Below, in pieces: positions 7,784-57,043 of a stretch of 64,000 bases of DNA. This DNA is from Halosegnis rubeus (lineage in GTDB: Archaea > Halobacteriota > Halobacteria > Halobacteriales > Haloarculaceae), in assembly GCF_009184545.1 (NCBI RefSeq), contig NZ_QJOW01000001.1, positions 744,001 to 808,000 of the forward strand, written 5' to 3'. Position 1 is the first letter of the stretch. Each line of letters begins with the position of its first letter. The notes beneath the pieces are model-generated. The model was not told where the DNA came from, searched no databases, and saw only the letters and a program-made list of their open reading frames with translations. Position numbers and translations under genes: made by a program.

Positions 7784-8698
7784 ATGGCAACACTCGAACT
7801 CAACAACCTCCACGCAGAGGTGGCCGAGGAGGGTGGCGAGACCATCCTTCGCGGCGTCGACCTAGAAGTGTCCTCCGGCGAGATCCATGCGCTCATGGGG
7901 CCGAACGGCTCGGGAAAGTCCACGACGGCCAAAATCGTCGCCGGCCACCCGGCGTATCGCGTCACCGAGGGTGAAGTGCTGCTCCACCTCGACGAGGCGG
8001 AGTTCGAGGACGACGACATCGAAATCGACGAGGAGGACCTGACATGGGACCTGCTCGAGCTCGAGCCGAACGAGCGCGCCGCGCTCGGTATCTTCCTCGC
8101 CTTCCAGTATCCCGCCGAAATCGAGGGCGTGACGATGGTGAACTTCCTGCGAACGGCCCTCAACGCGAAGATCGAAGAGCGCGAGGAGCTGTTCGAGGAG
8201 GACGACGACGGCGAAGAACAAGAAGAGGAGGCGGGCTACGACACGTCACCGATGGAGGGCGACGTGGACGAGGGCGAGGTCGGCGTCGCCGAGTTCCAGC
8301 AGCTCCTTCAGGAGAAGATGGAGCTGCTCGATATGGACGAGAAGTTCGCACAGCGATATCTCAACGCCGGCTTCTCCGGCGGCGAGAAGAAACAAAACGA
8401 GGTGCTGCAGGCGGCCATCCTCGAACCGTCTATCGCGGTGCTTGACGAGATCGACTCCGGGCTGGACATCGACCGGCTGCAGGACGTGGCGAACGGCATC
8501 AACGCCCTGCGCGACGAGGTCGGCACGGGCGTCCTCCAGATCACCCACTACCAGCGCATCCTCGATTACATCGAGCCGGATTACGTCCACATCATGCTCG
8601 ACGGGAAGGTCGTGAAGGAAGGCGACGCGGAGCTCGCAAAGGAGCTAGAAGAGAAGGGATACGACTGGGTCCGCGAGGAAGTGTACGAGACGGCCTAA
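7784..8698 (+). CDS. sufC: SufC, ATPase of the SUF iron-sulfur cluster scaffold
   Basis: A 304-residue ABC ATPase: Walker [10 protein letters not shown] (39-47), signature [10 protein letters not shown], Walker [13 protein letters not shown] and a downstream switch-region histidine (QITHYQR). SufC powers the SufBCD scaffold that builds Fe-S clusters in the cytoplasm. Between the Q-loop region and the signature is a Glu/Asp-rich insert of ~40 residues (near 130-170) absent from bacterial SufC, an expansion common in halophiles. The start at 7784 was chosen because [12 protein letters not shown] matches the family N-terminus; the frame stays open upstream. It is the first gene of sufCBD, 32 nt before sufB. 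Confidence 0.96.
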
Positions 8699-8730
8699 CG
8701 CACATACGTATCCACCACTAACATCAAACA

Positions 8731-10161
8731 ATGAGTTCAGATCAAGACCACCTCAAAGAGACCGAGACCGAAGCCCGCTTCGAGTTCAAGAAGGAGGAAT
8801 CGTCCGCCTTCAAGACGGAGAAGGGGCTGACCGAGGAGACGATTCGCGTCATCTCGGACGACAAAGACGAACCCGAGTGGATGCTGGAGCGTCGGCTCCG
8901 CGCCCTCAAGCAGTTCCAGCAGATGCCGATGCCGACCGACTGGCCCGGTCAGCCGGACCTGTCCGAGGTCGACATCGCCGACATCGTCCCGTACATCCGC
9001 CCCGACATCGAGACGCGCGGCGGCGCGGAAGAATGGGACGACCTCCCGGAGGAGATTCGAGACACCTTCGACAAGCTCGGCATCCCGGAAGCAGAGCGTA
9101 ACGCCCTCTCCGGTGTCGGTGCACAGTACGAGTCCGAGATTGTGTACCAGAACATGCAAGAGCAGTGGGAGGAGAAGGGCGTCATCTTCTGTGACATGGA
9201 CAAGGCCGTCCAGGAGCACGAAGAGCTCGTCAAGGAGTACTTCATGACGAAGAACGTCCCCGCCAGCGACAACAAGTTCGCCGCGCTCCACGGCGCGATC
9301 TGGTCGGGCGGCTCGTTCGTCTACGTCCCGGAAGACGTGACGGTTCAGATGCCGATTCAGGCGTACTTCCGCATGAACTCCGAGGGGATGGGTCAGTTCG
9401 AGCACACGCTCATCATCGCCGAGGAGAACTCCGAAGTGCACTATATCGAGGGCTGTTCGGCTCCCAAATACAGTCACTTCAACCTCCACTCCGGCGGCGT
9501 CGAGGTGTTCGTCGGCGAGGGCGCACACGTCCAGTACTCCACGGTCCAAAACTGGTCGAAGAACACGTACAATCTCAACACCAAGCGCGCCATCGTCGAG
9601 AAGGACGGCACGATGGAGTGGGTGTCCGGCTCCATGGGGTCGAAGGCGACGATGTTGTACCCCTCTTCCGTGCTGAAGGGACCGGGCGCGACGGACAACC
9701 ACATCACCATCGCCTTCGCTGGCGAGGGCCAGAACATCGACACCGGCGCGAAGGTGTACCACAACGCGCCTGACACGAAGTCGACCATCGAGTCCAAATC
9801 CATCTCGAAGGACGGCGGTCGAACGAACTACCGCGGGCTCGTCCACATCGCAGACGGCGCCGAGAACTCCTCCACGTCCGTCGAGTGTGACGCCCTGATG
9901 TTCGACAACGAGAGTACGTCGGACACGATGCCGTACATGGAGATTCAGGAGTCGAAGGTCGACGTGGCCCACGAGGCGACGGTCGGGAAGATCGGCGACG
10001 AGGACGTGTTCTACCTGCAGTCGCGTGGTCTGGACGACGACGACGCAAAGCAGATGATCGTCGCCGGCTTCATCGAGCCGATCACGGAGGAACTGCCCAT
10101 CGAGTACGCCGTCGAGCTGAACCGACTCATCGAACTCGAGATGGAGGGCTCGCTCGGATGA
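8731..10161 (+). CDS. sufB: SufB, iron-sulfur cluster scaffold subunit
   Basis: This 476-residue protein carries the long beta-helical SufB/SufD core with family strings such as SGGSFVYVPEDV, EGCSAPKYS and YRGLVHIADGAEN. The Cys in EGCSAPKYS lies in the SufB core and is absent from the paralogous SufD. SufB with SufC and SufD forms the scaffold on which clusters are assembled. The length matches archaeal and bacterial SufB. The ATG follows a 32-nt gap with an A-rich leader (CATCAAACA), and the stop overlaps sufD by 4 nt. Confidence 0.97.
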   Translation: MSSDQDHLKETETEARFEFKKEESSAFKTEKGLTEETIRVISDDKDEPEWMLERRLRALKQFQQMPMPTDWPGQPDLSEVDIADIVPYIRPDIETRGGAEEWDDLPEEIRDTFDKLGIPEAERNALSGVGAQYESEIVYQNMQEQWEEKGVIFCDMDKAVQEHEELVKEYFMTKNVPASDNKFAALHGAIWSGGSFVYVPEDVTVQMPIQAYFRMNSEGMGQFEHTLIIAEENSEVHYIEGCSAPKYSHFNLHSGGVEVFVGEGAHVQYSTVQNWSKNTYNLNTKRAIVEKDGTMEWVSGSMGSKATMLYPSSVLKGPGATDNHITIAFAGEGQNIDTGAKVYHNAPDTKSTIESKSISKDGGRTNYRGLVHIADGAENSSTSVECDALMFDNESTSDTMPYMEIQESKVDVAHEATVGKIGDEDVFYLQSRGLDDDDAKQMIVAGFIEPITEELPIEYAVELNRLIELEMEGSLG

Positions 10162-11375
10162 GCACGCAGGTACACGCGTCTATCGACGAGACGACCGTCC
10201 GCCAGCTCTCCGAGGAGCTCGGCGAGCCGGAGTGGCTACTGGAGACGCGACTCGACGCGCTCGACGCGCTCGAAACGCTGGATTTCCCGGATGTCATCCA
10301 GACGCCGGGTCGGCTGTGGACCGATATCGCCGACCTCGATTACGACTCGCTCGTCGATCCGCTCAACGCGGCCGAGGAGAAGGACCAGGTCGGTCCCGAC
10401 AACGCCGAGGTGCTGTCGTTCGCCGAGGCCGTCGACGAGCACGAGGATCTCCTCAAGGAACACTTCGGCTCCGTCGTCGACCCGCAGACGAACTACCTGA
10501 CGGCGCTGTCGACAGCGCTGTTCTCGACTGGGACCGTCGTCTACGTTCCCGAGAAGGTCGACGCGGAGGACGTGAAGGTCCGCACGACGATGAACAGCCG
10601 CTCGCTGTTCAACTACACGCTCGTCGTCGCCGAGGAGTCGTCGTCGGTGACGCTGCTCGAACGACAAGAGACCGGCGAGAATGTGGAGGGCGACCGCTAC
10701 TACAGCGGGCTCGTCGAGGTGTCGGCGGGCGAGAACGCGTACGTCCAGTACGGCTCGCTTCAGAACCTCGACCAGACGACGTACAACTACCAGCTGAAAG
10801 AGGGCGTCGCAGACACCTACGGTCAGGTGGACTTCATCGACTGTAACGCCGGCTCTCGGCTCTCGAAGTCGAGCGTCGAGACGCACCTCGAGGGCGACAG
10901 CTCCGAGACGAAAATCGTCGGAGCCTTCTACGGCCACGAGGACCAGCACTTCGACATCGACGCCCGGGTCTGGCACCGCAACGAGAACACGACGGCCGAC
11001 CTCGTGACGCGAGGCGTCATCGACGATCTGGCACGCTCCGTCTACGAGGGGGTCCAGGACGTGGGTCGAGACGCGTGGAACACCTCCTCGTACCAGCGGG
11101 AGAACACGCTCATGCTCTCGGACGAGAGCGAGGCCGACGCGTCTCCGAAGCTCATCATCAACAACCACGACACCGAAGCCTCCCACTCCGCGACGGTGGG
11201 ACAGGTGGACGACGAGGATATGTTCTACATGGCCTCGCGTGCTGTGCCGGAACGCACGGCCAAGAACATGCTCGTCAAGGGGTTCTATGTCCCCGTCCTC
11301 GAGGAAATCGAGGTCGACGAGCTGCGCGAGGACTTCCAGGCGCTCGTCCGCGAACGTCTCGAAGCCCGCGATTAG
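10158..11375 (+). CDS. sufD: SufD, partner subunit of the SufBC2D scaffold
   Basis: A 405-residue SufB paralog with the same C-terminal beta-helix and closing helices (SHSATVGQVDDEDMFYMASR matched to SHEATVG-type sequence in SufB), but a shorter N-terminal region and no equivalent of the SufB cluster-binding Cys. SufD stabilises the scaffold and helps iron entry. Its ATG overlaps the sufB stop (ATGA), giving coupled translation. No sufS or sufE/U is visible downstream; the cysteine desulfurase must be encoded elsewhere. Confidence 0.95.
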   Translation: MSTQVHASIDETTVRQLSEELGEPEWLLETRLDALDALETLDFPDVIQTPGRLWTDIADLDYDSLVDPLNAAEEKDQVGPDNAEVLSFAEAVDEHEDLLKEHFGSVVDPQTNYLTALSTALFSTGTVVYVPEKVDAEDVKVRTTMNSRSLFNYTLVVAEESSSVTLLERQETGENVEGDRYYSGLVEVSAGENAYVQYGSLQNLDQTTYNYQLKEGVADTYGQVDFIDCNAGSRLSKSSVETHLEGDSSETKIVGAFYGHEDQHFDIDARVWHRNENTTADLVTRGVIDDLARSVYEGVQDVGRDAWNTSSYQRENTLMLSDESEADASPKLIINNHDTEASHSATVGQVDDEDMFYMASRAVPERTAKNMLVKGFYVPVLEEIEVDELREDFQALVRERLEARD

Positions 11376-12561: not shown

Positions 12562-12664
12562 AGTCCCGTGGTGTAGTGGCCAATCATAGCGGCCTTTGGA
12601 TGTGCTCAGTGTGGACTGACACAGGAGAAAGCCGTTGACGGCAGTTCGAATCTGCCCGGGACTA
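12562..12664 (+). tRNA. tRNA-Gln (UUG) with a 30-nt intron
   Basis: Acceptor stem AGTCCCG/CGGGACT, T-arm GGCAG-TTCGAAT-CTGCC and anticodon stem GCGGC/GCCGT are all visible. The intron is 12600-12629, after position 37. The bulge-helix-bulge can be drawn: CTTT pairs with GGAG, the 5' bulge is GGA and the 3' bulge AAA, and the intron folds as TGTG/CACA plus TCAG/CTGA. Splicing gives loop CTTTGGA with anticodon TTG. An intron in tRNA-Gln(UUG) is known in haloarchaea. CCA is not encoded. The last three bases overlap the stop of the convergent AlaX-like gene. Confidence 0.93.
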
Positions 12665-56392: not shown

Positions 56393-56475
56393 CTACGTCA
56401 CTCGTTAGCACGCCTCGACAAAAATTAATATCTTACCGCTGAACCGTTCGGTTGAACACGAACGAGGTTCCATCC

Positions 56476-56580
56476 ATGACCCGCTATCTCCACACCACGG
56501 TGTCTGCACTCGCCGAGAGTGCAGCACGCGGCGTGGGGAACTGGATGGGCTTCGACGCCGTCCCGACCCTCGCCGCGTAG
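56476..56580 (+). CDS. Possible 34-codon peptide in the structured intergenic region
   Basis: ATG 56476 opens MTRYLHTTVSALAESAARGV followed by GNWMGFDAVPTLAA and TAG. An AT-rich box AAAAATTAATATC (56420-56432) is about 45-55 nt upstream. The peptide is an amphipathic helix candidate with no homolog I know. Its last codons lie inside the first stem of the adjacent foldable RNA. Coding status is doubtful; it may be chance. Confidence 0.25.
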   Translation: MTRYLHTTVSALAESAARGVGNWMGFDAVPTLAA

Positions 56581-56692
56581 GCGGGCGTTGGCCCGTCACG
56601 CGACGTGATGGGTCGGGACTTCTCTGACTTCTCACGTCGCACAGCGGCGACTCGCGAGCGGCACGTGTGTGCGTGGCTCGCCACGCGCTCGC
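56560..56692 (+). ncRNA. Candidate structured RNA: a four-way and a three-way junction in tandem
   Basis: Domain 1: GTCCCGACCC (56560-56569) pairs with GGGTCGGGAC (56610-56619), 10 bp, enclosing CGCC/GGCG (56571-56574 with 56580-56583), GGC/GCC (56584-56586 with 56591-56593) and TCACG/CGTGA (56596-56600 with 56604-56608). Domain 2: GCGAGCG (56654-56660) pairs with CGCTCGC (56686-56692), enclosing GCAC/GTGC (56661-56664 with 56669-56672) and CGTGG/CCACG (56672-56676 with 56681-56685; C56672 is shared, so the two hairpins compete by one pair). Almost every base in domain 2 is paired. No known RNA family is recognised. Confidence 0.45.
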
Positions 56693-56711
56693 CCACCAGC
56701 CAGCGACAGCA

Positions 56712-56764
56712 CCCTCGATAGCCACAGGTGTCCGACGGACGCGCGTTCGAATCGCGCCGAGGGG
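56712..56764 (+). pseudogene. Partial class II tRNA (tRNA-Ser-like 3' portion), tRNA-like end
   Basis: The T-arm GCGCG-TTCGAAT-CGCGC (56741-56757) and a variable-arm-like hairpin GTCC-GAC-GGAC (56730-56740) are intact, as in a class II tRNA. CTCGATA-GCCAC (56714-56725) reads as the anticodon loop (CGA, Ser) and 3' stem of such a tRNA, but the 5' half is missing. At the same time CCCTCG (56712-56717) pairs with CGAGGG (56758-56763), a 6-bp stem, so the fragment by itself can form a minimal tRNA-like fold without D and anticodon arms. It is either the remnant left by integration or deletion at a tRNA-Ser(CGA) gene, or a tRNA-like structure. Confidence 0.6.
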
Positions 56765-56767
56765 ATG

Positions 56768-57043
56768 ATGGCAATCCAGATGACCACCACCGAGGTCGAA
56801 ACCGACCTGCGGCTGCGCATCGCGCGCGGCGACGCGGGCAGCCTCGGCGACGGTGCACGACAGCTACTCGAACAGACCGACGCGGTCGAACGCGTCGAAC
56901 GAATCGACATCGGCGCGATGCAGCCGGACGCCTTCGACCTCTACGTCGACGCGACCGCCCGGCTCACCCTCGCTGACGACGCAGATATCGAGGCGGTCCG
57001 TGACGGCTTCGGCGTTGAACGCGCGGACCCCGCCGACGGATGA
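56768..57043 (+). CDS. Small haloarchaeal protein of unknown function
   Basis: About 91 residues (ATG 56768; ATG 56780 is an alternative start MTTTEVETDLRLRIARG). Alpha/beta composition with several acidic clusters and no Cys, His-cluster or membrane segment: SLGDGARQLLEQTDAVERVERIDIGAM is split here at 24-50. It resembles a small ferredoxin-like-fold domain protein, unidentified. It starts 4 nt after the tRNA-like fragment, so its promoter or leader must lie in or before that structure, which is unusual. Confidence 0.6.
   Translation: MAIQMTTTEVETDLRLRIARGDAGSLGDGARQLLEQTDAVERVERIDIGAMQPDAFDLYVDATARLTLADDADIEAVRDGFGVERADPADG

Follow-up and report, generated by a model that had tools for sequence, protein, structure and literature searches.

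A conserved tRNA-like structure directly before the start codon of a haloarchaeal gene: a candidate t-element for an mRNA

Mitochondrial transcripts are divided by tRNA punctuation, in which RNase P and RNase Z carry out the excision, and these two activities also make mascRNA. In tmRNA an open reading frame lies inside a tRNA-like fold that has a G3-U70 pair, whilst operators of the thrS type mimic the anticodon arms of tRNAs. In haloarchaea many leaderless mRNAs are translated, and these are usually made by transcription that starts at the start codon. The closest described system is the t-element, which is said to lie upstream of the 5S rRNA in Haloferax volcanii in work by Holzle et al. 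from 2008 and 2012. Passages in PMC4326828 and PMC3296008 describe this element as being cut by tRNase Z, which makes the 5' end of the 5S rRNA, and as a signal for RNase P and tRNase Z that releases crRNAs from engineered transcripts.

A structure of similar design occurs before a protein gene of Halosegnis rubeus. The DNA analysed, here called the window, is a single stretch of 64,000 nucleotides at positions 744,001-808,000 of its contig, and the features of the locus, which include a tRNA-like structure (TLS), are as follows.

56424..56431, + strand: TATA-like promoter element ATTAATAT of the whole unit (sequence)
56464..56467, + strand: Shine-Dalgarno-like GAGG before the small ORF (conserved motif)
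56476..56580, + strand: small ORF of 34 aa, MTRYLHTTVSALAESAARGVGNWMGFDAVPTLAA, with stop codon TAG
56560..56710, + strand: structured RNA between the small ORF and the TLS (predicted fold)
56711..56765, + strand: TLS, t-element-like (fold, conservation, covariation)
56711..56717, + strand: 5' strand of the acceptor stem, ACCCTCG, pairing with 56758-56764
56721..56729, + strand: mini D-arm-like hairpin GCC ACA GGT (fold)
56730..56740, + strand: hairpin GTCC GAC GGAC, replacing the anticodon/variable arm (fold)
56741..56757, + strand: T-arm GCGCG TTCGAAT CGCGC (T-loop TTCGANY in 92/92 loci with a T-arm)
56758..56764, + strand: 3' strand of the acceptor stem, CGAGGGG (sequence)
56765, + strand: N73 position of the TLS, overlapping the first ATG
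just 3' of 56765: predicted tRNase Z cut, placed by tRNA numbering and by comparison with the 5S t-element
56768..57043, + strand: gene encoding a 91-aa haloarchaeal protein of unknown function (alternative start 56765)

The original prediction saw a minimal tRNA-like fold at 56712-56764, with CCCTCG pairing to the 3' side of an acceptor stem, and both points hold: CCCTCG pairs with CGAGGG in the fold, a hairpin and a canonical T-arm follow, and the whole is conserved across genomes. It also placed a gene directly after the element, and an ATG does stand at 56765, although the alignment of homologs puts the start at the second AUG (56768). The letters CTCGATA, taken for an anticodon loop, instead belong to the 5' acceptor strand and its linker. 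Nor is the 5' half missing, since the acceptor strand ACCCTCG, an AUA linker and the mini D-arm GCC-ACA-GGU are all in place. The T-arm was correctly assigned, and the hairpin GTCC-GAC-GGAC stands where an anticodon arm would be.

The acceptor stem has an A1-G72 mismatch and six perfect inner pairs. The folding energy of 56712-56764 (-23.3 kcal/mol against -18.2 for shuffled sequences, z -1.85) is only modestly favourable and on its own is weak evidence, so that the weight falls on conservation and comparison. At the window TLS neither ARAGORN nor the Rfam tRNA model calls a tRNA, and the anticodon arm with a 7-nt loop, scored by tRNA models, that marks a functional tRNA is not found; the T-arm and acceptor stem in a tRNA-like fold that mark a t-element are. 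Searching the whole unit against Rfam at a relaxed threshold gave chance matches only. Elsewhere in the window, at 12562-12664, Rfam finds a 103-nt tRNA missed by ARAGORN, which to the eye looks like a tRNA-Gln(TTG) with an archaeal intron.

Searching with the 391-bp region recovers the locus in each of the five further genomes sampled from the genus, and two genomes of other genera (G032 and G012) are found through the TLS part. Loci homologous to that of the window also occur in Halorarius and in Halobacteriales MAGs. Two weak DNA matches of the first search (L039 and L040) proved to be chance hits to the gatB gene, and a further short match (L041) is devoid of TLS context. Of 392 genomes sampled from the order, 208 encode a homolog of the 91-aa protein, and when the sample was widened to the phylum, the 19 genomes with a match were all members of this same order.

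Conservation of the TLS was assessed on 103 distinct loci whose start codon is defined. A T-arm was scored as strict if it had five pairs and a TTCRANY loop and stood 15-30 nt upstream of the start codon; 69 of the 103 loci have one, against 0.11 expected from background density, and relaxing the definition to four of the five T-stem pairs gives 92 loci. In every one of these 92 the T-loop reads TTCGANY, its TTCGA being invariant, and nucleotide 72 lies 0-5 nt, mostly 2-3 nt, from the start codon; at the window locus 0-3 nt separate the end of the TLS from the start codon of the gene for the 91/92-aa protein. The T-arm and acceptor were tested by script, the middle part being too variable in length for MAFFT. 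Among 86 non-redundant loci, all seven acceptor pairs are Watson-Crick in 27 (2.1±1.4 in shuffles) and the inner six in 51 (8.6±2.5 in shuffles), a test that is free of selection for pairing and carries no correction for kinship, with loci spanning several families. Pair types were counted in the 57 of the 92 loci whose inner six acceptor pairs are Watson-Crick, a set thus selected for pairing, and positions 3, 4 and 5 each show at least three types with both sides changing: 3-70 is CG in 29, TA in 24 and GC in 4; 4-69 is CG in 43, GC in 8 and TA in 6; and 5-68 is CG in 43, AT in 7, TA in 6 and GC in 1. That the TLS is a real, selected element is close to certain.

The unit to which it belongs has a single promoter-like box. 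Of 28 loci, 25 have a TATA-like A+T octamer ahead of the small ORF, whereas none has one in the equivalent interval before the gene for the 91-aa-type protein, which makes it most likely that the small ORF and the downstream gene share one transcript. The Shine-Dalgarno-like motif ahead of the small ORF is conserved (GGAGG, GAGGT or GGTGA), and the gene is without a conserved one because the acceptor stem fills that space. Of 92 loci, 46 have an ORF that follows such a motif and has an -AA-like C-terminus, and the antisense strand gives no case; the C-terminal rule is not a tight one, and a small number of the 46 (L135, L138) were probably chosen in error. These ORFs end in TAG (19), TGA (15) or TAA (12), a mixture that translation would maintain. 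They differ greatly in sequence and share an ending like (L/I/P)AA-stop within a predicted hairpin, recalling tmRNA tags. At the window locus the helix between 56560-56569 and 56610-56619 encloses the stop codon, the fold of 56440-56766 is far better than that of shuffled sequences (z -5.4), and a long predicted hairpin around the 3' end of the small ORF recurs in many other loci and lineages.

The candidate for a functional tRNA-like end beside a structured RNA, as first proposed, thus gains support from anatomy and from comparison across haloarchaea, and we judge that it is probably, if by no means certainly, a t-element before an mRNA, at which tRNase Z, and perhaps RNase P, would release a nearly leaderless message. 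Transcription from the one promoter before the small ORF would give a bicistronic RNA containing the Shine-Dalgarno-led small ORF, the structured RNA, the TLS and the gene. tRNase Z would recognise the helix formed by the T-arm and acceptor and cut after N73 (A56765), whilst RNase P may process the TLS at its 5' end. The message of the gene would then begin about 1-4 nt ahead of its start codon, here as 5'-UG-AUG-GCA, and so be suited to leaderless initiation, a common mode in haloarchaea. We infer the cleavage, the enzymes and the use of the leaderless product from several observations. The 3' end of the acceptor lies 0-5 nt from the start codon in the 92 loci, at the predicted 5' end of the released RNA, as a t-element requires, and a tRNase Z gene is present. 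The 5S rRNA of the same genome is preceded by CCGAC-GATGGTCTTCAT-CGTGG-TTCGATT-CCACG-A-GTCGG, which has the t-element design; given this and the processing in H. volcanii, the locus seems to reuse a known signal before an mRNA. This 5S t-element stands just upstream of L209 (G000:C8:124719).

The range of forms that the TLS takes is also instructive. In L142 and L143 it is a near-perfect tRNA-Glu(UUC), scoring 59 bits with the Rfam tRNA model, and full-length D-arms occur in other lineages, for example in L098, L127 and L143. Outside L142 and L143 the acceptor and T-arm are kept, and it is the D and anticodon parts that become smaller or variable, the pattern expected if the TLS is read by processing enzymes and not by the ribosome. 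On the processing reading, the TLS derives from a tRNA and has kept just what these enzymes need. The tRNA-like relatives were found by Rfam in a smaller set of loci with laxer filters, and an Rfam search of six relative loci found no tRNA. A second TLS occurs 3' of the stop codon in 16 of 103 loci, beginning 21-184 nt after it, and an extra upstream TLS in 6 of 103, with none on the antisense strand as a control. Where a TLS follows the stop codon, the mRNA would be cut out at both ends. L112 has a complete tRNA-Tyr(GTA)-like gene of 61 bits as its TLS beyond the stop codon (1287-1359).

Several findings count against processing. This genome's TLS has a vestigial D-arm as well as the A1-G72 mismatch, and some acceptor 3' strands contain a Shine-Dalgarno-like GGAG, so that ordinary initiation is possible there. 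Halorussus plasmid homologs (L115-L119), annotated as hypothetical protein, have a different start and are without a canonical TLS, which indicates that the gene can do without it. Finally, a scan of this genome for a TLS followed by ATG, using one strict pattern, returned this locus and a true tRNA-Ala only. On this single-pattern result the idea that tRNA punctuation is general in this genome and affects many genes was rejected, and occurrence at one locus is also what would be expected of a locus-specific regulatory element.

Such an element would be an operator. Either the protein that the gene encodes or one that binds tRNAs (EF1A, a synthetase or the CCA enzyme) would attach to the tRNA mimic within the mRNA and control how the downstream gene is translated or processed, in the manner of thrS. 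We consider this unlikely, though it deserves to be taken seriously. Besides the restriction of the TLS-ATG arrangement to this gene in the genome, it draws on paralogs, two genomes having two copies that each retain their own TLS (L127/L135 and L136/L137), which speaks for processing as well, and on the ferredoxin-like protein, whose fold and sequence bear a weak resemblance to aEF-1beta. The AF2 model is ferredoxin-like (pLDDT 82, pTM 0.68), and its best fold matches, the archaeal proteins of unknown function SSo6206 and MTH889 together with EF-1beta, are not significant (E 0.03-0.2). No Pfam or NCBIfam family was found for the window protein. TIGR00489 (aEF-1beta) is matched by 4 of 67 homologs, with a best E of 0.063, and not by the window protein, and PRK00435 is matched by one homolog (E 0.0012). 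A significant family-model match that would place the 91-aa protein in aEF-1beta was not found, all of the matches being weak (E 0.001-0.2), and a role with tRNA or in translation is a guess. Moreover, an operator has no need to stop 0-5 nt short of the start codon in all lineages, or to recur 3' of the stop codon, and the anticodon-like parts are not conserved.

It is less probable still that the TLS is the remnant of a decayed tRNA cluster that once held the gene, its neighbouring tRNAs now being functionless pseudogenes. In L162 and L164 the gene does lie inside a larger row of tRNA-like genes, and tRNA gene clusters are known in haloarchaea (PMC6333295); the two rows are probably clusters of the kind described there. 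The unusual tRNA-like genes around the gene's homologs (L162:7350-9750; L164, reverse strand, 8350-10250) are of Asp, Glu, Val, Ala, Asn, Lys, Pro and Gln types, and the rows contain four or five copies of an insert of the form stem-TATT-(CACC..GGTG)-CGAG-stem-GTT(A/C)CTTC. However, decay would not keep the T-loop in 92 of 92 loci, compensatory changes in the acceptor and a fixed distance to the start codon, and the explanation is already strained.

There is only a slight chance that the helix is a mere translation-initiation hairpin, gating a Shine-Dalgarno-like GGAG or GAGG in the acceptor 3' strand, with the tRNA likeness incidental. The window locus has a GAGGGG just before the second ATG and several others read GGGAGC-CT-ATG, but many acceptors without such a motif (CGTCGGC, CGCCGGC, CGGACGT) keep the T-loop, stem and spacing, and the invariant TTCGA loop has no role in gating. 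A similarly faint prospect is a dedicated RNA system of haloarchaea, in which the small ORF ending in -AA, the structured RNA and the non-decoding TLS would come free as one stable RNA, with CCA added, and this RNA would itself have a part in translation, for instance as a tmRNA-like rescue RNA or sensor. Its partner would be the ferredoxin-fold protein, translated from what is left of the transcript as a leaderless mRNA.

Although partial tRNA sequences act as attP in haloviruses (PMC7230728), the first suggestion of an integrase attachment scar, the 3' half of a tRNA-Ser(CGA) left by integration, can be set aside, as the intact tRNA-Ser(CGA) of the genome (L024: GCCGAGATAGCC...GTGAGTTCAAATCTCACTCTCGGCG) is unlike the TLS in its acceptor, its variable arm and its T-arm, the core occurs only once in the genome, the window holds no phage-type integrase (the nearest on the contig being about 275 kb away), and across many genera the element keeps its place with respect to the gene.

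If processing by tRNase Z is correct, a conserved tRNA mimic would make a leaderless mRNA by cutting, a second route to such messages and one found in a prokaryote, comparable with that of mitochondrial tRNAs, and tRNA processing enzymes would be seen to work on an mRNA. It would also account for a promoterless hypothetical gene in about half of the sampled haloarchaeal species.

As in mitochondrial punctuation, tRNA-type structures flank coding regions and would yield mRNAs with almost no leader, but here this concerns a single locus in archaea and mimics that do not decode instead of functional tRNAs. In common with mascRNA/MALAT1 and tmRNA, the TLS is a tRNA-like domain without a decoding anticodon arm. 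The -AA ending of the small ORFs brought tmRNA itself into consideration, but it is ruled out by architecture, the small ORF lying outside and upstream of the TLS, and by pair 3-70, which is C-G, U-A or G-C. The thrS operator is likewise a tRNA-like element before a gene, whereas the TLS conserves the acceptor and T-arm and not the anticodon region. The L162 and L164 genes, set within rows of tRNA-like genes, resemble the haloarchaeal tRNA gene clusters, unlike the window locus, which is without a cluster and has a TLS unable to decode. With the 5S t-element the TLS shares the plan of a minimal tRNA mimic, made of a T-arm, acceptor and hairpin, directly before the 5' end of an RNA for release. 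It differs in standing before the start codon of a protein gene, with which it is conserved across haloarchaeal families, and in occurring after the stop codon as well in 16 loci.
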